From: Sulfurimonas sp.
GTDB lineage: Bacteria; Campylobacterota; Campylobacteria; Campylobacterales; Sulfurimonadaceae
DNA: 54,107 nucleotides
Reading direction: 5' to 3'
NCBI GenBank assembly: GCA_028684815.1
Contig: JAQUFE010000012.1
Span: 1 to 54,107 of the forward strand
Under the pieces are notes generated by a model. The model worked only from the letters and a program-made list of their open reading frames with translations. It searched no databases and was not told where the DNA came from. Positions within the stretch are counted from its first letter, which is position 1. Every line of letters begins with the position of its first letter. This document shows, piece by piece, positions 35,907-46,127 of the stretch. The translations under genes and the position numbers were made by a program.

Positions 35907-38639
35907 TTAAAGGACTTCTCTGAGTATAGTATCCAAAGTAGAGTCTTGTAAATAAACTATACACCCACTTACTTTTTGTTTCGTTATCTCTCTTATCGCT
36001 TCCATATAGTTTCTTACTTGGGCTTCATGATTTTGGGCGTGGTTTTGGCTTGATTTGTAGTCTATGACTGTAAAACTTCCATCTCTGTGTTTTATCAGCA
36101 AGTCTATATATCTAAGATTGTTTTTATAGCGAAGCGCTTGCTCTTTATAGATTTCGCCATTGAGTTTTAAGGTAAATTTCTCATTTTCAAGTAGTTTTAT
36201 AACTCTACTCTCTATCTCATCTATCTCATCTACTTCTAGTGTATATCCATATCTGTTTAGCATCATATTTTTTGCATTTGTTATGCTATTTATTGAAAAA
36301 TCTGCCAGCATCTCAAGCATATAGTGAAGGGCTATACCAAAATTCATAGCCTTTAAATCCTCTTCTTGTGGCTCTTCTAGCTTTAAGATATCACTTTGAG
36401 TTCCATAATATAGCTCTTCGTAGCTAAACTCATAAAGCATCTCATTTGTCTGCTCGTCTCTTTTTTGCAACACATTTGGGCTTGGTTTTTCCCCTAGAGT
36501 TTGGGCTTTTAACTCTAAGATATCAAAGCTAGAATCTTTTAGTTTTGCTACAACGCAAAGACTCTCTTTTGCCCTTGTAAATGCGACATAGAGAGCATTT
36601 AGAGTGTCTTCCTTTGCTAAGATTTTCTCTTTTGCTAGTGCCTCGGCGTACCCCTCATCTAACTCATCTCGCCCCTTTACTCTTAAGTAAACATCTCTTA
36701 GCTTGATGCCATCGTATTCATAAACTATGGCATCTCTAGCTGGTGGGGCTTTTTTGAGCCTATCCATAACTATGACATGCTCGTATTCTAGTCCTTTTGA
36801 CTTGTGAATAGTCAGAACTCTTACTCCACTTATGTCAGATGCAGCAGCACTAATGTCAAGTCTCTCATACTCAAAAAGTAGAGCTTCTATATCATCATAA
36901 GCGCTGATGGCATCTAAAAAGCGGATAAGGTGAAAGTCATCACTAAATAGTCTGTACTTATCTATGGCGCCTTTTATGAGCTGTGAGAGTTTTGCTTTTT
37001 TCAAATCTACTTTTGCGATAATCTCTGCATCTCTTTGGATGAGTGCAAAAAAGTTGTACCTATAGATATCTTCATCAAAGTACAGATACTTCAGGTACTC
37101 CAAAACCGCTTTTACACTTCTTTGGTTTATAAGTTTTGTTGTTGTCTCTGTGACTACTTCAATATTTTTCTCTTCTAAAAGCTCTTTTATAACTTCGCCA
37201 TCTCCGTTTGTAGCACAGAGTATAGCTATCTCGTTTATGTCTGCGTTTAAGCTTATGAGCTCTTTTGTTTTAGCAAGTGTAGCATCTAGGATGTCCTCGC
37301 TCTCTCTTACTTCAACATATCCGCCATCAGCATCTAACCTTGTCTTTTGTGGTGCATAGTTTTTTATCTTATCTTTAAATGTCTCATTTACAAACTCTAT
37401 GATATTTTTTTGAGATCTGTAGTTTGTAAGAAGAGCTTCAACTTCTGTATGACACTCACGCACAACCTCTCCAAAGAGTGCGCTCACACCACCACGAAAT
37501 CTATATATAGACTGTTTCACATCTCCAACAAAAAAGAAACTCGCTTCCTCTTTTACTCCGCTACCTGAGACTATCTCACTAATGAGCGGTTTTAGTATCT
37601 CATACTGCAAGATGCTAGTGTCCTGAAACTCATCTAAAAGAATGTGTTCAATGTTGGCATCTAGTCTAAAGTACAAAAATTCACTATCAATCTGCTCTTT
37701 TAAAATCTTATATACTAAGAGTGTGACATCGTTAAAACTTAGCTCACTATCTTCCATATATAGTGCTTTTTTTGCCTTTTCATAGATGTGAGTGAGCTCA
37801 CTTAGTGCGTAAAAGAAGTTCTGCTCTTTTGCTCTTGTGTGCGCTTTAATGGCATCTTGAATCTCTCTTAGATGCACATCCATCTCTGGAGTAAAACACT
37901 TTGAAAATGTTCTATAGTCAAGACTCTCACGACCTAGCCAACTCTTTTCTAGCAAGCCTGTAAAAGTCGTGGCATCTACTGAGTTTATAACAGTAGAAGA
38001 AGCCGCTTTGCATCTACTCACTATCTCTCTCAGGCTCTCTAAATGGGTTAGCGCTATATCTTCATAGTGCAAGAACTCCTCTTTTTTAAACTCTAAGTGT
38101 AATAGTTCTTGTTGCTTGATATAAAACTCATCTAAAAGTGTAAAAATATCTGTAAGTCTCTTGTTTGATTGAAGCGAGAGCGTGATGAGTGTATCTTTTT
38201 TTCTTGCAATTTCCACCTCTTTTAAAAAGCGTGAGAGGAGTTTTAACTCATGTTGAGAGCCCATAGTTGTGAAGTCTGGCATGAGTGAAGCGTAGAGTGA
38301 GAACTTTCGTAGGATGTGTGAGAAAAACTTATCTATGGTCATGATTTTAGAGTTTGAGTTTAGAAACTTCTCTAAAATCTCATCTCTGTTTTTGAGTAGC
38401 TCTGCCTTTTTTAGACCAGTAACCTCTACTATCTCATCTAATTCGCCCCTACTCTCTAACTCCTCTAAAGTCTGAACTATCCTCTCTTGCATCTCATAGG
38501 CTGCTTTGTTTGTAAAAGTGAGTGCTAAGATTTTTGAAGGAGATGCACCAAAAAAAAGCAAAGAGAGATAACGAACTACAAGCATAAAAGTCTTACCACT
38601 TCCAGCACTCGCTTCATAAGCTAGGTTTTGTTTAAACAT
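35907..38639 (-). CDS. addA: AddA-like helicase-nuclease (UvrD/RecB type)
   Basis: A 910-residue superfamily 1 helicase with a C-terminal RecB-type nuclease. Walker A is EASAGSGKTFML near the N-terminus; motif Ia, LALTFTNKAAYEM; Walker B, ILLDEFQDTSILQYE; motif III region, GDVKQSIYRFRGG; motif VI, LYVAFTRAKESL. The nuclease motif is FTVIDYKSSQ near the end. It acts with AddB in double-strand break repair and recombination. The ATG at 38639 has AGGCAG upstream; an in-frame TTG at 38666 is the alternative and would place the ribosome site in the adjacent repeat. Family A element A17 separates it from addB. Confidence 0.88.
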   Translation of the reverse strand: MFKQNLAYEASAGSGKTFMLVVRYLSLLFFGASPSKILALTFTNKAAYEMQERIVQTLEELESRGELDEIVEVTGLKKAELLKNRDEILEKFLNSNSKIMTIDKFFSHILRKFSLYASLMPDFTTMGSQHELKLLSRFLKEVEIARKKDTLITLSLQSNKRLTDIFTLLDEFYIKQQELLHLEFKKEEFLHYEDIALTHLESLREIVSRCKAASSTVINSVDATTFTGLLEKSWLGRESLDYRTFSKCFTPEMDVHLREIQDAIKAHTRAKEQNFFYALSELTHIYEKAKKALYMEDSELSFNDVTLLVYKILKEQIDSEFLYFRLDANIEHILLDEFQDTSILQYEILKPLISEIVSGSGVKEEASFFFVGDVKQSIYRFRGGVSALFGEVVRECHTEVEALLTNYRSQKNIIEFVNETFKDKIKNYAPQKTRLDADGGYVEVRESEDILDATLAKTKELISLNADINEIAILCATNGDGEVIKELLEEKNIEVVTETTTKLINQRSVKAVLEYLKYLYFDEDIYRYNFFALIQRDAEIIAKVDLKKAKLSQLIKGAIDKYRLFSDDFHLIRFLDAISAYDDIEALLFEYERLDISAAASDISGVRVLTIHKSKGLEYEHVIVMDRLKKAPPARDAIVYEYDGIKLRDVYLRVKGRDELDEGYAEALAKEKILAKEDTLNALYVAFTRAKESLCVVAKLKDSSFDILELKAQTLGEKPSPNVLQKRDEQTNEMLYEFSYEELYYGTQSDILKLEEPQEEDLKAMNFGIALHYMLEMLADFSINSITNAKNMMLNRYGYTLEVDEIDEIESRVIKLLENEKFTLKLNGEIYKEQALRYKNNLRYIDLLIKHRDGSFTVIDYKSSQNHAQNHEAQVRNYMEAIREITKQKVSGCIVYLQDSTLDTILREVL

Positions 38640-38671
38640 GTTTACTGCCTTTTTTTTATCACTCAAGTCTA

Positions 38672-38757
38672 TCTGGCTCCCATGCTCCGCGTGGGAGTCT
38701 ATATATATAACTGTAACTCAGATATATATGAGTTCCAACGCAGAGCATTGGAACTAG
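38672..38757 (-). repeat. Family A element A17 between addB and addA
   Basis: Arm one is TCCCATGC-TCC-GCGTGGGA and arm two is TTCCAACGC-AGA-GCATTGGAA with an A-T exchange in the stem that is compensated on both sides. It occupies almost the entire 137-base space between the two subunit genes, with its end about 30 bases before the addA ATG and its other end 20 bases after the addB stop. Confidence 0.87.
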
Positions 38758-38776
38758 AAAAGTTTTTACTAGCTAC

Positions 38777-41131
38777 TCACTCTCTGCCACACATGATTTT
38801 ATATTCACAATATTGGCAATGCTTTATATCTTCACACAGCTCAAAATTTACCTCTTCTATCATGAGTAAATCTTTTATATGTGAGGCTAAAATCTCTAGT
38901 TTCTCTTGTAAAAAACTCTCATTTGCTATCTTTGTCTCTTTTAAATCATAATATCCGCAGGAGCTAACTTCTTTAAGCTGTGAAGCTAAAAGATAGTAAA
39001 ACTCCAGCTGAAAATCTGTCGCTTCGCTAAAGTTTTTTGCTGTAAATGTTGGGTATGAGCCTGTTTTGTAGTCAAGAACTTCTAAGATATTATCTTTGAT
39101 ATCTATCCTGTCTATTGTCCCCATAAGCTTCATCCCAGCATAGGTACTCTTTAGCTCTTTCTCGCAAGCAAAGACTCTATAGCTATTACTAAATCTCTCT
39201 ATCTCAAAAATACAAAATGCCTCTAGTCTTCTCTTTTGTAGCTCGATGAGATACTTATCTAGCTCACTCTTACCACGAACTGCATCTAACTCTGTGTGCA
39301 AATCCTTTTTTAGCTCTTCTTTATCTCTGTAAAAACTTTTTTTCGTATATAGATTTTTCAAAGCTTCATGAACAGCTGTTCCTATCTCATGCTCAGCTGG
39401 CATATCTTTTGGGATTTCATGGTTTTTTATGGCTTTTATATATTTGTAGTAGTATCTTCTTTTGCAGGTTAGAAATATTTTTAACTTTGTTGCTGAGAGC
39501 GTTACATCTTTAAAACTATAGGCGAGTCTTATCTCATCCTCTTTTGGTGCAATTTGTTCTCTAGACTCACAAAAGAGTATCTCTGCGTAGTCTTGCTCTG
39601 CGAAATTGTTTTGCTCTTTAATGCCTAGATGCTTTAAAAACCTAGATGGACTGCTCTCTTGTGAGCTTACATAGGAGATGGCTACCTCTTTTGCTGAGTT
39701 TATTAGCATCTCGTAGTAGTATTTTTGTAAGTTTTCTCTGTCACTCATAGTTGGCAAGCTTGCCATCTCTCTTATGTTTGTGTTTAAAAACATATCTTTA
39801 TCACTTCGCTTTGGAACATTTGCGTCGCTAAAGTCAAGAATGATAACCCCGTCAAAGCTGATGGCTCTAGTCTCTAGTAATCCCATGACGGTAACTTCAC
39901 CACCTCTTACATCATCTAAGGCTGTGCTATTTAATCTTTGTAAAAACATTGATATGAGAGATTTTACACTCATCTCTTTCATGCTTGGGAGTATATTTTT
40001 TAGCAGATATACCTGTTCATTATATATCTTCTTCTGCTCAGATGTAACTTCGCATAACTCTAAAAAGGAGTTTAGAAGTTTAGTAGCATCTATCTCATGA
40101 GTTTTTTTATAGTAGATGCCAAAGAGCTCTTTGTATATCTCATCGCCAAATCTTTGAAGTCTTGCGAAGTTTTCTTGTGATGCGTTCTCTATCGCCATTG
40201 TTGAAGCGTTTATCTTTTGGTAGATGAGTGATGTGTTAAATGGCTCGCCCATGGCAAAGTTAAAGTTACCTAGCTTATCAAAATCTCTTAGATGCTTTGC
40301 CGTACTCTCATCTGGTAAAACAATAGCGATGTTTTTTGCCTCATAACCCATTTTTATAAAATCGTAAATCTTTTTCTTCGCAAACGCGACTTGTAGTAGA
40401 TTTTGGCTAAAAGATTCACAGCTTATACTTTTGTTCTGTTTTATCGGCTCTTTTTCTAGCACTTCTTTAGTGTTTAGTGATATTTTATATCTAAATCCCA
40501 CTTCAAACTCTATCTCTGCAATATGTGCCAATCTCTCTTGCATCTTAGAGTTAAACTTCGTTGCATCAAAGATAATAGTGATGTTTGAATAGGCACAGCA
40601 CTTCTCTAGAAGTTCAAACTCAAAGTTTGTAATGTGACCAACTGCTCTTAGTTCTATCTCTTTATGCTCATTTATATAGGAGCTGTTAAACTCATAAAGC
40701 TTTGATAAAAAGATTCTGTCTAGTATTTTTCTCTCATTGCAGAGATTTTCAAATCGTTTATACAACTCTTGGAGTATGCTAATGTGCTCTTCATACTCTG
40801 CATATATATCAGAAGTATCAAGCTCATTTATATCATACATCTCAGCACTAAGCTCTTGAAAAAACTTGAAAATATATGAAGAGTTTTTTGTAAAAGTAAA
40901 GAAGTTTCTCTCGATGCGAAGCGAGGAAAATGAGTTAAAGTCTGAAGCTTCTAAAAGAAGTAAAACCCTACTATCTTCATCTACCATCTTCATATCTTTT
41001 ACGATGCACAGCTTTGAGAGAAACTCGCTCATACTTATGTAGTTTGGTAAAAAAAGTGTTTGATCTTTAAACTGAAGTAGCTCGTGGCGAATCGCACGAG
41101 CTGTTGGGAGGATAATTGTTTTGTTTTGCAT
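38777..41131 (-). CDS. addB: AddB-like subunit (inactivated helicase fold with PD-(D/E)XK nuclease)
   Basis: A 784-residue protein. The N-terminal half lacks a Walker A motif but keeps UvrD-like segments. The C-terminal quarter is a RecB-type nuclease: ATKLKIFLTCKRRYYYKYIKAI, EIGTAVHEALKNLY, and the catalytic ILEVLDYKTGSYP. One Cys of a probable iron-sulfur staple is in FLTCKRR and the others are in CQYCEYKIMCGRE at the C-terminus, as in AddB. It is shorter than Bacillus AddB, as usual for epsilonproteobacteria. It precedes addA, and the cbb3 accessory genes lie just upstream, an order I recall from Campylobacter. Confidence 0.87.
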   Translation of the reverse strand: MQNKTIILPTARAIRHELLQFKDQTLFLPNYISMSEFLSKLCIVKDMKMVDEDSRVLLLLEASDFNSFSSLRIERNFFTFTKNSSYIFKFFQELSAEMYDINELDTSDIYAEYEEHISILQELYKRFENLCNERKILDRIFLSKLYEFNSSYINEHKEIELRAVGHITNFEFELLEKCCAYSNITIIFDATKFNSKMQERLAHIAEIEFEVGFRYKISLNTKEVLEKEPIKQNKSISCESFSQNLLQVAFAKKKIYDFIKMGYEAKNIAIVLPDESTAKHLRDFDKLGNFNFAMGEPFNTSLIYQKINASTMAIENASQENFARLQRFGDEIYKELFGIYYKKTHEIDATKLLNSFLELCEVTSEQKKIYNEQVYLLKNILPSMKEMSVKSLISMFLQRLNSTALDDVRGGEVTVMGLLETRAISFDGVIILDFSDANVPKRSDKDMFLNTNIREMASLPTMSDRENLQKYYYEMLINSAKEVAISYVSSQESSPSRFLKHLGIKEQNNFAEQDYAEILFCESREQIAPKEDEIRLAYSFKDVTLSATKLKIFLTCKRRYYYKYIKAIKNHEIPKDMPAEHEIGTAVHEALKNLYTKKSFYRDKEELKKDLHTELDAVRGKSELDKYLIELQKRRLEAFCIFEIERFSNSYRVFACEKELKSTYAGMKLMGTIDRIDIKDNILEVLDYKTGSYPTFTAKNFSEATDFQLEFYYLLASQLKEVSSCGYYDLKETKIANESFLQEKLEILASHIKDLLMIEEVNFELCEDIKHCQYCEYKIMCGRE

Positions 41132-41146
41132 AAGGAATATTATAGT

Positions 41147-41653
41147 CTAATATTCTAAAATCTCATCTTTTCTTGTATCTGCTTTTATGTTGTAGTATCT
41201 TTCAAGTTCGCCAACATTTACCTTAGCCATAATATCCCATCTACCCTCTACTGGTATCTTTATAGACTCAAAACTGTAGATGCCATCATTGACATTAAAA
41301 GTCTCTAGTGTCTGATCATATTTATGGTTATTTGGTCTTGTTATGATTATTTTTAATTTCGCATCGTTTATAGGGTTGCTTGACTTGTCTGTAACTTTAT
41401 ACTTTATGATGCTATCATCAAGGTGTAAACCCTCATTTATATACTCTATGGTGTACTCTTTATCAAAAGCTATGCGAGCTTCTATGATTTCATTTGCTGC
41501 CGCATCAGCCTCTTGATATCCTCTCATATAGGTATCACTATCTTCAACTGGAAGTTTATTAGTTATAACAACTGTTGCAACACAGGCACCAAAAACTAAA
41601 ATTATGGCTATACTAATTGCGTATGGCCAAATTATTCCACTATTTTTTTTCAT
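41147..41653 (-). CDS. FixH-family protein (cbb3 oxidase accessory)
   Basis: A 168-residue protein with a hydrophobic N-terminal helix (about 9-30) and a beta-rich periplasmic domain (NDAKLKIIITRPNNHKYDQTL, then EGRWDIMAKVNVGELERYYNIK) resembling FixH/CcoH, which helps assemble cbb3 oxidase. Its position downstream of ccoNOQP supports that role. It overlaps the preceding gene by 14 bases. Confidence 0.78.
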   Translation of the reverse strand: MKKNSGIIWPYAISIAIILVFGACVATVVITNKLPVEDSDTYMRGYQEADAAANEIIEARIAFDKEYTIEYINEGLHLDDSIIKYKVTDKSSNPINDAKLKIIITRPNNHKYDQTLETFNVNDGIYSFESIKIPVEGRWDIMAKVNVGELERYYNIKADTRKDEILEY

Positions 41654-42329
41654 GACTTTGCCTCTTTGAATATATTTTTCTCTTTATGTATAAAATAATT
41701 GCGTATAGTATCACGCCATAAAACAATACTTTTACAACTAAGATACTAGTTTGATTAGCACTCCCTACTGCATTTTGCAAAACCACATTTTTACTCTTTG
41801 CAACTTGCTCAGCAATATCTGCGTAGCCATTAAACATGGAGCCAGAATACTTACCTTTTTGTTCACCGTCTTTGGCTTTTTGTGAGAGCAGTGGTAGGAT
41901 TGTGCCTCCACTACTCATATCACTAAAGTTCATATTTAAAAGCGCTACAACAAAGGCTTGAACTGGAGAGGATATGGGACTTAGGACTTGCTTTTTATCA
42001 AAATATTCATATAAAGATGCAGGGTTTGCTAAAATGTCTACTCTCATATCTAACTCTGAAAAAGTTAGAAGTATTGTAGGTTCACTAAAGTTTTGCATCA
42101 GCTCTTTTTCATACTCAACTATATTCTTGTCTTTTGGGAGTTCTCTTAGCATTAGTAGCTTTAGGGATATTCCTGTTTTTTCATATAGTTCAGCACCTAT
42201 TTTATTAACCTCTTGATTAAATGCTGGGTTAAAGATAACTTCATCTTTATATAAATACTCTTTGGATTGCAGTAGACTTGTACAAAAAATGAGAGTGAGG
42301 GCTAAAAGCCCTCTGTTAAGAAATTTCAA
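41640..42329 (-). CDS. Exported TPM-like domain protein with C-terminal membrane anchor
   Basis: A 229-residue protein if translation starts at the TTG at 42329. That start has AGGA seven bases upstream and gives a clean signal peptide (FLNRGLLALTLIFCTSLLQS); longer in-frame versions would read through the microprotein gene in another frame. The mature part NKIGAELYEKTGISLKLLML...PTILLTFSELDMRVDI resembles the N-terminal half of TPM-domain proteins. A single helix follows near the C-terminus (about 200-218) and then a basic tail. In the cbb3 operon it may serve assembly, which is inferred from position only. Confidence 0.7.
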   Translation of the reverse strand: MKFLNRGLLALTLIFCTSLLQSKEYLYKDEVIFNPAFNQEVNKIGAELYEKTGISLKLLMLRELPKDKNIVEYEKELMQNFSEPTILLTFSELDMRVDILANPASLYEYFDKKQVLSPISSPVQAFVVALLNMNFSDMSSGGTILPLLSQKAKDGEQKGKYSGSMFNGYADIAEQVAKSKNVVLQNAVGSANQTSILVVKVLFYGVILYAIILYIKRKIYSKRQSHEKK

Positions 42330-42337
42330 GAAAATTC

Positions 42338-42427
42338 CTAACCAACAAAAAGATGATTTGGTGTTACAACCGCGTAAATTGTGTAAATGGCCATGATAAC
42401 AAGACCCCATGAAATTATTTTTTCCAT
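42338..42427 (-). CDS. 29-residue membrane microprotein in the cbb3 operon
   Basis: An intact small frame beginning MEKIISWGLVIMAIYTIY and ending in a short polar tail (PNHLFVG). One hydrophobic helix spans residues 5-22. GGAG precedes the ATG at good spacing, and the gene sits between the DUF4006 gene and the TPM-like gene, with 12 bases on one side and 8 on the other to the TTG start. Small single-helix subunits are known in cbb3 oxidases (CcoQ, CcoM in Pseudomonas), so this may be a further subunit or assembly factor. Homology was not tested. Confidence 0.72.
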   Translation of the reverse strand: MEKIISWGLVIMAIYTIYAVVTPNHLFVG

Positions 42428-42439
42428 TATTTACTCCCT

Positions 42440-42649
42440 TTACTTTACATCAACTATATGCTTAGCGTTTTCTGTGCTAATCATTCTAATTGACTGTTCA
42501 TCTTTGATTTGGTAAAAATTTGACATGTTAGCATTTTGTACACTAAGACCCCACACTGTTAAAACAGCAAGGATGCTTAGTAGTAAAACAGTAGCTATTA
42601 ACATACCTGTTATGCCATCGAGAGCAAATACGCTTCTATTTTCATTCAT
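42440..42649 (-). CDS. DUF4006-type small membrane protein
   Basis: A 69-residue protein starting MNENRSVFALDGITGMLIAT, one membrane helix (about 15-36), and a polar periplasmic tail. The FALDGITGMLIA opening matches the DUF4006 family that follows ccoP in Campylobacter and relatives (recalled). It probably belongs to the cbb3 oxidase as a small accessory protein. It is ten bases from ccoP. Confidence 0.78.
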   Translation of the reverse strand: MNENRSVFALDGITGMLIATVLLLSILAVLTVWGLSVQNANMSNFYQIKDEQSIRMISTENAKHIVDVK

Positions 42650-42659
42650 ACCTGACTCC

Positions 42660-43607
42660 TTATTTGCTTAAATCTGTGACATAAGCGCCAACAGCTTCTT
42701 TTTGCTTAGCATTAAGTCTTTCAAATGCCGGCATTTGACCTATGCTACCTTTTTTACCATGGTTTAAGATGTTAGTAACAAGTTCAGGAGTAAACGTAGC
42801 AACGCTTGGAGCTACATATTCCATACCCTTACCATCTTCACCATGACAAGCTGCACAAGTGCCCATAAAAACATCTTCACCAGCTCCACTCATACCATTT
42901 GCTACATACTTAGACACAATGTCTATCTCTGCATCTGTTATAAGTGCGCCTGTGTTAGAGTTAAAAAGACCATTACGATCTGGCATTGGCATCTCAGAGC
43001 CTAGTAGGTGGTTGTTTGAACCATTTTCAATAGCAAATTTAACAGTTTTTTCTTCAATTCTTACATTAAGATCTGCTGCTTTGCCATCGATACCATCAGC
43101 ATTTAAACCGTGACATACCTTACACTCTGCCAAAAACACTGATTTACCCATATCAACGAGTCTATCGCCAGTAATAGCAGAATATTTAGATTCAAATTTA
43201 GCATTGTGTACAGCTGAATCTTCATTATACTCACCAATTTGTGAATATGCATTTAGTGGATAACCTATTGTAAAGTACCACATACCCCAAACCATAGTAA
43301 GGATAAATGCAATTCCCCAGCCTTTTGGAATCTCATTTAAGTACTCACCAATTCCATCCCACTGCTCATCGATCAACTGACCTTGTGCAGTATCAGTTTG
43401 CATTTGACGAACATACTTAATTACAACAAAAACTGTAATTATTACAAGTGTTATTGCACCTGCTATTGCCAAAGAGTTAATAATATCATTACTTAATATT
43501 TCTGATAATCCTTTACCAGAATCGCCAGCTGTAATTACTAATGTATAGAATGTAGCTGCGAACATAATTATAGTTATGATAATTCCCCAAAGATAAAGCT
43601 TGTTCAT
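42660..43607 (-). CDS. ccoP: Cytochrome cbb3 oxidase, diheme cytochrome c subunit
   Basis: A 315-residue subunit with two N-terminal helices (about 5-27 and 47-65), a third near 98-115, and two c-type heme sites: C162-x2-C165-H166 (CKVCHGL) and C251-x2-C254-H255 (CAACHGE). Met-containing loops after each supply the sixth ligands. It brings electrons from the bc1 side to CcoO and CcoN. It has the same order and spacing as in other epsilonproteobacteria. Confidence 0.96.
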   Translation of the reverse strand: MNKLYLWGIIITIIMFAATFYTLVITAGDSGKGLSEILSNDIINSLAIAGAITLVIITVFVVIKYVRQMQTDTAQGQLIDEQWDGIGEYLNEIPKGWGIAFILTMVWGMWYFTIGYPLNAYSQIGEYNEDSAVHNAKFESKYSAITGDRLVDMGKSVFLAECKVCHGLNADGIDGKAADLNVRIEEKTVKFAIENGSNNHLLGSEMPMPDRNGLFNSNTGALITDAEIDIVSKYVANGMSGAGEDVFMGTCAACHGEDGKGMEYVAPSVATFTPELVTNILNHGKKGSIGQMPAFERLNAKQKEAVGAYVTDLSK

Positions 43608-43618
43608 ATATCTCTCTC

Positions 43619-43822
43619 CTATTTCTTTTTATCGTCTCTTATAGATGCTACAGGAGTATCATCTATATCGTCGTGTAGTGCCATATTACTATACTGTTCA
43701 TAGTCAATTCCATCAGCGTTTTTCTTCTTTGAATATAAATGATATATATATGCATAGAGAACTACCACTAAAAAAAGTGTTGATGCGAAGTAACCATAAG
43801 CTTGAAATTCTGCAATATCCAC
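43619..43822 (-). CDS. ccoQ: Cytochrome cbb3 oxidase, small subunit CcoQ
   Basis: A 67-residue protein with one helix (about 9-28, YFASTLFLVVVLYAYIYHLY), a basic stop-transfer KKKN and an acidic cytoplasmic tail. It lies between ccoO (12 bases) and ccoP (11 bases), which fixes its identity better than the sequence does. Confidence 0.88.
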   Translation of the reverse strand: MDIAEFQAYGYFASTLFLVVVLYAYIYHLYSKKKNADGIDYEQYSNMALHDDIDDTPVASIRDDKKK

Positions 43823-43834
43823 TATAAACCCTTT

Positions 43835-44527
43835 TTACTTAAGACTGTTAAGATATGCGATTAGAGCTACTATCTCAGGTATCTCACCACGAGCTACCGC
43901 ATCTTTAACATTTTGATCTTTCATATCAGCAGCAATCTCTTTCGCTTCAGCTAAAGCCATTGCATGCGCTTGAGTTACATTATTCCCCATTTTAACAACT
44001 TCTGTAGTTCCATCTTTCATAGGAATAGGTTCGTTATAAGGAACTGAAAAGAACTGCGCATTTGTTAATTGCTCAGCATATGCTGTTGGAATATCCGCTA
44101 TATTAGTATACATCCAACGATACGCAGGCATAACAGATCCTGGAACAACGCCAGCTGGATCTTTCATATGATTTTCGTGCCAGTCTGTAGTACGGTAGTT
44201 ACCTACACGCATGAGATCTGGTCCAGTTCTTTTTGAACCCCAAAGAAAAGGTCTATCATACGCATATTCGCCACTTAAAGAGTAGTGACCATAACGATCA
44301 GTCTCTGATTTAAATGGACGAATCAGCTGTGAGTGACAAGCATTACAGCTATTTTTTATATATATTTGGCGACCAGTAGTCTCCAAAATTGAATATGGCT
44401 TAGTTCCAATCACAGGACGAGAAGCTTGGGCAAAACTTGGAAGAATTTCAACCAATCCTGCAAAAGCAATTACTAAGAACACACCTACCGAGAAAAAGAA
44501 CGGATGCTTTTCTAACCAATGAAACAT
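43835..44527 (-). CDS. ccoO: Cytochrome cbb3 oxidase, monoheme cytochrome c subunit
   Basis: A 230-residue subunit with an N-terminal anchor (about 9-30) and one heme site C61-x2-C64-H65 (NSCNACHSQLIRPF). The downstream YGHYSLSGEYAYDRPFLWGSKRTGPDL is the standard CcoO stretch, with later Met residues (GSVMPAY) for the axial ligand. It is 17 bases after ccoN. Confidence 0.96.
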   Translation of the reverse strand: MFHWLEKHPFFFSVGVFLVIAFAGLVEILPSFAQASRPVIGTKPYSILETTGRQIYIKNSCNACHSQLIRPFKSETDRYGHYSLSGEYAYDRPFLWGSKRTGPDLMRVGNYRTTDWHENHMKDPAGVVPGSVMPAYRWMYTNIADIPTAYAEQLTNAQFFSVPYNEPIPMKDGTTEVVKMGNNVTQAHAMALAEAKEIAADMKDQNVKDAVARGEIPEIVALIAYLNSLK

Positions 44528-44544
44528 AATATAATCCTCCCTTT

Positions 44545-46038
44545 CTATGCGCCCATAGGCGATGCAGATTGTAGCTCAGATTCTTCAACAGGACGAGCAG
44601 ACATAGTTTTGTATATGTTATAAGCAAACATTAAAAAACCAACTAGGTATAACAATCCACCAACACCACGAATAGTGTAATAAGGATGTAATACAGTAAC
44701 AGTATCGATAAATGAGTAAGCTAAGTTACCAAATTCATCGTGAGCACGCCACATCATACCTTGAGTAATACCAGCGATCCACATTGAAGTGAAGTATAAA
44801 ACAACACCTAGTGTTTGAATCCAGAACTGTGTAGTCATAAGGCTTTTTGAGTAGATCTCACGCTTAAATACACGAGGAGCCATATGAAATAGCGCAGCCA
44901 TAATCATAAAACCAACCCATCCTAAAACACCGTCATGAACGTGTCCAACAATCCAGTCTGTAAAGTGCGCAATTGCATTTACTGATTTGATAGCTTGGAT
45001 AGGACCTTCTAATGTAGAGAACATATAGAATGTTGAAGCTAGAATCATAAACTTAATAAGTGGAGATGCTGCAACTTGTTGCCATTCGCCCTTCATTGTA
45101 AGAAGCATATTTATAGCTGAACCCCATGATGGTAAAATCAGAATAACAGAGAAAATAGACCCCATAGTCTGAACCCAGTCTGGAACAGTAGAATAAAGCA
45201 AGTGGTGTCCGCCAGCCCATAGATAAAGAAACATTAATCCCCAAAAAGATAGTAATGATAGTTTATATGAGTAGATAGCCTGACCAGACTCTTTTGGTAA
45301 GAAGTAGTAAATCATCGCAACTATAGGAACAGTAAAACCAAATGCAACTGCATTGTGACCATACCACCATTGAACTAGTGCATCATTTGTACCTGCATAC
45401 ATAGAGATAGAGTGATACCAATTACCGCCTACATGACTTCCATCAGGTGCGCTAGCAAGCATTGTTGGTATTTCCATGTTGTTAAATAGATAAAGCATTG
45501 CAATACCAAGAAAAGTCGCTATATAGTACCAAACAGAAATATATAGTGATTTTTCACGGCGAATACCGATAAGACCAAATATACCAAGACCAAAAAGTAC
45601 CCATACTACAACGATTGCAATATCAATAGGCCACTCGAACTCAGCATACTCTTTTGAAGTAGTAACACCTGCGAAAAGTGAAACAACTACCGCGGCAACA
45701 GTTACTAAGTATAACCAAAAGTGTAGCTTTCCTAAAAACATCAACAGTTTTGACTCTGCCATTGATACTTTTAATACACGCTGACCAACATAATACCAAG
45801 TAGCAAAAATACCACTAAGTGTAAACCCGAAAATAACTGCATCAGTATGCAGCGGACGAAGACGACTGAAGTTTGTATATTCTGCAAGTCCCTCACCTAG
45901 AAACAGGTTTACACCTGGGAAAGCAAGTTGAAATGCTAAAATTACACCGATGAGCATGCCCACAATCCCCAACAGAATTGTTGTGAACATAAACATCTTC
46001 GTAACTGTATAGTCGTACTCTAATGGACGATTCTCCAT
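44545..46038 (-). CDS. ccoN: Cytochrome cbb3 oxidase, catalytic subunit
   Basis: A 497-residue heme-copper oxidase subunit with about 12 helices. The low-spin heme His is in RPLHTDAVIFGF. The CuB and high-spin sites include QWWYGHNAVAFGFTVPIVAMIYYFLP and GGHHLLYSTVPDW. The proximal pair is in DWIVGHVHDGVLGW. The start at 46038 has a perfect AGGAGG seven bases upstream. It is the high-affinity terminal oxidase for microaerobic respiration. A 245-base leader region precedes it after the carA terminator. Confidence 0.97.
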   Translation of the reverse strand: MENRPLEYDYTVTKMFMFTTILLGIVGMLIGVILAFQLAFPGVNLFLGEGLAEYTNFSRLRPLHTDAVIFGFTLSGIFATWYYVGQRVLKVSMAESKLLMFLGKLHFWLYLVTVAAVVVSLFAGVTTSKEYAEFEWPIDIAIVVVWVLFGLGIFGLIGIRREKSLYISVWYYIATFLGIAMLYLFNNMEIPTMLASAPDGSHVGGNWYHSISMYAGTNDALVQWWYGHNAVAFGFTVPIVAMIYYFLPKESGQAIYSYKLSLLSFWGLMFLYLWAGGHHLLYSTVPDWVQTMGSIFSVILILPSWGSAINMLLTMKGEWQQVAASPLIKFMILASTFYMFSTLEGPIQAIKSVNAIAHFTDWIVGHVHDGVLGWVGFMIMAALFHMAPRVFKREIYSKSLMTTQFWIQTLGVVLYFTSMWIAGITQGMMWRAHDEFGNLAYSFIDTVTVLHPYYTIRGVGGLLYLVGFLMFAYNIYKTMSARPVEESELQSASPMGA

Positions 46039-46076
46039 ATATAGCCTCCTTAAAGATTCAAAGCAATTATGTCTAA

Positions 46077-46127
46077 TTAGATATATGACCATATAACTAG
46101 ACCAATTAACAGTGCTACTATAACCAT
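46077..46127 (-). CDS. Possible 16-residue hydrophobic peptide upstream of ccoN
   Basis: A short frame MVIVALLIGLVIWSYI ends 38 bases before the ccoN ATG. Every residue fits a single membrane segment. There is no clear ribosome site before its ATG, so translation is uncertain. It could be a leader peptide, a microprotein, or chance. Confidence 0.25.
   Translation of the reverse strand: MVIVALLIGLVIWSYI

Follow-up and report, generated by a model that had tools for sequence, protein, structure and literature searches.

A 29-residue orthologue of CcoY in the cbb3 oxidase operon of a Sulfurimonas-type bacterium, with a conserved hairpin at the ccoY-ccoZ junction

The cbb3 oxidase operon of a Sulfurimonas sp. 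harbors, between ccoX and ccoZ, a 29-codon frame that is identified from its sequence and position as the orthologue of C. jejuni ccoY (Cj1485). The frame lies in the window, i.e., the whole 54,107-nucleotide stretch analysed (contig JAQUFE010000012.1 of assembly GCA_028684815.1). The gene is conserved, codes for a single-helix protein, and is linked to the cbb3 oxidase by its co-occurrence with ccoN and ccoX. Although originally predicted as an unannotated microprotein, it belongs to a known kind: the name ccoY was given in C. jejuni in 2021 (passages of PMC8267372), and the gene is here recognised in a Sulfurimonas-type lineage. What is new is that CcoY is near-universal in cbb3-bearing Campylobacterota, that it shrinks to 29 residues, and that a widely conserved hairpin, with stem sequences differing among families, covers the first ccoZ codons. 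Taken as a whole, the explanation in which we place considerable confidence is that this ccoY orthologue encodes a small accessory oxidase subunit, presumably oriented N-in/C-out and lying on CcoNOQP/CcoX, that its translation is probably coupled to that of ccoZ, and that the hairpin may set ccoZ-ccoH apart.

The genes follow each other in the order ccoN, ccoO, ccoQ, ccoP, DUF4006 (ccoX), the ccoY frame, a TPM-like gene (ccoZ), and a FixH-type ccoH (Table 1). The frame encodes the peptide MEKIISWGLVIMAIYTIYAVVTPNHLFVG (29 residues, ATG start). It begins just downstream of the ccoX stop (42442-42440) and closes with a TAG (42340-42338, minus strand), eight bases before the ccoZ TTG at 42329. 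Every element of the original prediction, a single-helix frame with its own ATG, ribosome site, and stop between the DUF4006 and TPM-like genes, is thus present, as is the TTG that it placed eight bases past the stop; relatives carry ribosome sites of the AGGAG or AAGG type at the equivalent position. The 19-residue Kyte-Doolittle mean of the window peptide peaks at 2.02, indicating one helix, and a maximum of at least 1.6, our mark of one central helix, is found in 86 of 87 CcoY sequences. The peptide matches no Pfam or NCBIfam family above the curated cut-offs. Searching 53 members of alignment A2 singly against the same libraries returned scattered weak matches only (best E 0.004), among which one member against NCBIfam CydP (0.0066) is not meaningful, and a profile comparison between CcoY and CcoH gave no match. 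In the window, ccoH is immediately followed, without a change of strand, by UvrD-type helicase and PD-(D/E)XK nuclease genes (35907-41131), AddAB-like by domain content; at the C. jejuni locus a possible helicase gene, cj1482c, likewise adjoins ccoH.

Table 1. Features of the ccoNOQPXYZH region of the window, in order of transcription
Feature	Position	Strand	Evidence
ccoN (true start possibly inside the ORF)	44545..46092	-	PF00115, 1.6e-106; one TIGR00780 match in the genome
ccoO	43835..44527	-	PF02433, 1.1e-82
ccoQ	43619..43822	-	TIGR02736 over cut-off; PF05545
ccoP	42660..43607	-	PF14715 and PF13442
ccoX orthologue (DUF4006, 69 aa)	42440..42649	-	PF13179, 6.4e-30
Ribosome site AGGGAG, 6 bases before the ccoY ATG	42434..42439	-	Read from sequence
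ccoY orthologue, 29 aa, one membrane helix	42338..42427	-	Sequence, conservation, orthology, selection
Weaker stem, ccoZ TTG in or beside the loop	42319..42339	-	At or below -4 kcal/mol in 30/59 genus loci
Hairpin GAGGGCT-TTT-AGCCCTC in first ccoZ codons	42297..42313	-	Folding, conservation across loci
ccoZ orthologue (TPM-like), TTG start, 229 aa	41640..42329	-	Homology to the L094 ccoZ-position protein
ccoH (FixH family)	41147..41653	-	PF05751, 2.8e-09

In C. jejuni, the ccoP-ccoH interval is described as containing ccoX (Cj1486, DUF4006), ccoY (Cj1485), and ccoZ (Cj1484); CcoY has 33 residues with a central helix and CcoZ 200 residues with a DUF5130/TPM domain (passages of PMC8267372). A C. 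jejuni-type locus, L094, was recognised by two published cj1485c primers, both of which it contains without mismatch. The first of these is found exactly in 3 of 397 genomes and with two mismatches in four more, all from one genus. L094 reads ccoX-like gene, 33-residue ORF, 200-residue ORF. Its 33-residue ORF aligns with the window peptide over the full 29 residues with 13 identities (45%; E 8e-07 as a single comparison), and the window ccoZ product is orthologous to the L094 ccoZ-position protein (31% identity, E 7e-28; 0.065 against PF04536, under the family cut-off). It is because of this full-length alignment, together with the orthologous ccoZ neighbour, that the window frame is assigned to ccoY. 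Both forms share the position between ccoX and ccoZ, a single central helix, and an NHL.(I/V)G tail; they differ in length (29 versus 33 residues) and in the TTG with which the window ccoZ begins. For the window lineage, the oxidase role is a prediction drawn from C. jejuni. Cj1485 and CcoY go unmentioned in the main text of the C. jejuni small-protein census, and a literature search found no paper joining Sulfurimonas, cbb3, and a small protein.

Among 99 relatives, DUF4006 was found in 91, and ccoY is present in all 91 loci, each of which was examined. A single-helix ORF of 29-37 residues directly follows DUF4006 in 87 of them. In the remaining four (L160-L163, from genomes G062, G076, G093, and G097, two families), absence of ccoY was considered and rejected, the profile search having located it ~1.5-1.6 kb further on, behind a gene inserted between ccoX and ccoY. 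The inserted gene examined by domain, in one of the four loci, has FixG_C and ferredoxin domains and is hence ccoG-like, and those of the other three look alike. The first helix of this ccoG-like protein ends in INGNHFFLL, loosely resembling the CcoY tail TPNHLFVG. The CcoY profile also matches 80/80 loci under named taxa (Sulfurimonas, Sulfuricurvum, and more broadly named metagenome bins), which are the best 80 of 209, picked by similarity to the window DUF4006 protein and hence close to the window.

Of 200 genomes sampled from the phylum, 190 have ccoN, 191 have DUF4006, and 146 match the CcoY profile. The nine genomes devoid of DUF4006 are also devoid of ccoN and CcoY (0/9), and one genome with DUF4006 and CcoY gives no ccoN match. 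Outside one family, f14, CcoY accompanies DUF4006 in 128 of 128 genomes; within f14, presumably a Helicobacter-like family, the profile matches 18 of 63. Thirty-three f14 loci were examined, i.e., 31 of the 45 non-matching ones plus two with weak matches, and all show a single-helix ORF in the ccoY slot, followed by a ccoZ-like gene where the reading is clear. Loss of CcoY in f14 was therefore rejected, a divergent ORF of 33-41 residues filling the slot in 31/31 of the loci examined from the 45 non-matching genomes. These 31 ORFs are assigned to ccoY by position and by a loose (I/V)PN..L.. tail, their profile match not being significant. The ccoN products of f14, the family with the most divergent CcoY and DUF4006, score higher against TIGR00780, at ~724-850 bits, the others listed reaching ~724. 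The divergence of ccoN, CcoY, and DUF4006 in f14 may thus be linked.

Functionally, the available evidence comes from C. jejuni. Deletion of ccoX abolishes cytochrome c oxidase activity, while deletion of ccoY or ccoZ lowers it, loss of ccoY not abolishing it; copper rescues none of the three deletions, and terminator-less cassettes were used to limit polar effects (passages of PMC8267372). Genetic complementation of the ccoY mutant was not found in those passages. They also name CcoN, CcoO, CcoP, CcoH, CcoZ, and CcoX, and not CcoY, among the proteins identified by mass spectrometry in the oxidase bands; a 33-residue membrane peptide is easily missed in such an experiment.

CcoY, the sixth product of ccoNOQPXYZH, is predicted to be a single-helix inner-membrane protein. 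A lysine near the N-terminus and a tail devoid of lysine and arginine point to an N-in/C-out orientation. The helix would pack stably on the CcoNOQP/CcoX core, and the short periplasmic tail (..TPNHLFVG) may help to keep the complex active, as thought for CydX, CioY, and CcoM. The C-terminal ..NHL.(V/I)G is kept in most families. Variation in the NH motif of the tail nevertheless makes it improbable that CcoY acts in catalysis or as a heme ligand; the tail histidine, considered as a heme ligand, was rejected since it is missing from several members. CydX and CioY, of bd-type oxidases, are single-helix peptides of 34-37 residues encoded with their oxidase, as CcoY is with cbb3, but they belong to another oxidase family, and their likeness to CcoY was gauged through family libraries only. 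CioY binds CioA in C. jejuni (passages of PMC11955535). The original prediction offered a cbb3 subunit like CcoM or an assembly factor. The oxidase role fits the C. jejuni genetics, whereas the likeness to CcoM of the Pseudomonas stutzeri cbb3 oxidase is an analogy only: searched against the PDB, the CcoY profile found no chain up to E 10, known cbb3 accessory chains included. A CcoM chain is present in the PDB.

The second half of that prediction is the best surviving alternative, albeit a rather unlikely one: CcoY would act transiently with CcoX, CcoZ, and CcoH in maturation and leave the finished oxidase. The location of ccoY between ccoX and ccoZ-ccoH, and not among ccoNOQP, would suit such a factor, as would the ccoG-like assembly gene directly before ccoY in four loci, the partial activity remaining in the C. 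jejuni mutant, and the absence of CcoY from the proteins named in the complex. Yet CcoX, CcoZ, and CcoH were themselves found in the complex bands (all three C. jejuni points from passages of PMC8267372), and ccoY precedes the conserved hairpin, falling on the side of the structural genes.

This hairpin was delineated by folding 40-base sliding windows across 120 loci, which gave one sharp minimum 10-20 bases past the ccoY stop, with a mean of ~-10.9 kcal/mol versus -1.6 to -5.9 in non-overlapping windows. Simple stems below -8 kcal/mol occur there in 56/59 genus, 27/28 other-family, and 19/33 f14 loci, versus 11/531, 8/252, and 11/297 control windows of the same loci and 23/1180, 13/560, and 41/660 shuffles, respectively. 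The genus stem, GAGGGC-N5-GCCCTC, is present in 55/59 loci and in 79/80 of the named loci (again the best 80 of 209). It is coding (RGLxAL of ccoZ) and draws on codons seldom used in the window (GGG 8.1%, GCC 7.6%, CTC 9.3%). In other families the stem at this position has a different sequence, which by comparison suggests that pairing is under selection. The window's own fold at this point is only moderately exceptional (z -2.3). Most of L001-L091 and roughly half of L127-L159 carry a hairpin at this position, and the H. pylori-like loci L141-L145 show no strong stem. Rfam gave no match over 40000-45000 at the gathering threshold. A pattern scanner lists the window stem as terminator-like; a plain terminator was rejected, no clean T run following the stem in the window genus.

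The weaker stem lies upstream of the hairpin, its left arm overlapping both the ccoY stop and the ribosome site TAGGA. Since ccoZ has, as its first start, a TTG near the ccoY stop in 57/59 genus loci, translation of ccoY and ccoZ is likely to be coupled, and the hairpin may separate the output of ccoZ-ccoH from that of ccoNOQPXY. A broader reading, tentative and with somewhat less than even chances, is that of a phylum-wide RNA element: the ccoZ hairpin, kept by compensating change, would together with coupling set the ratio of ccoNOQPXY to ccoZ/ccoH, which we take to be supercomplex or assembly proteins, with CcoY as the final structural subunit ahead of the switch.

Coupling could also be the main purpose of ccoY, its translation opening the hairpin region for ribosomes at the ccoZ start and the peptide itself doing little. 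The TTG lies mostly 5-11 bases past the stop, the ccoZ ribosome site overlaps the ccoY stop, and hairpins surround the ccoZ start, as such a regulatory device would have it. This reading is nonetheless very improbable, given that CcoY persists despite the gene inserted upstream and that its amino acids are conserved, both in the tail of most families and in the substitution pattern. Among 59 gapless 29-codon sequences, the pairwise pN/pS is 0.29, with pN below pS in 1707 of 1711 pairs, versus 1.18 and 1.64 when these bases are read in the two alternative frames; mean pairwise differences at codon positions 1, 2, and 3 are 0.216, 0.122, and 0.459. The conserved small frame with synonymous substitutions that had been sought in relatives is thus found, and by this measure ccoY is under purifying selection at the protein level.

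As a lone ORF, the frame has only a modestly unlikely chance origin, and conservation decides: of 5000 shuffled versions of the 105-base junction, 2.0% contain a closed ATG ORF of at least 29 residues (4.4% when ATG, GTG, and TTG starts are allowed), but position, length, frame, and sequence are conserved in every locus examined, so that a chance open frame was rejected and is left with practically no probability.

With these results, a gene studied in one species becomes a near-universal companion of the cbb3 oxidase in Campylobacterota. It is short enough for gene finders to miss and has no entry in the family libraries; a profile such as that of alignment A2 would let annotation pipelines detect it. 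The 29-residue Sulfurimonas-type form brings the structure of a minimal accessory subunit within practical reach, and the hairpin offers a testable idea on how subunit ratios are set.
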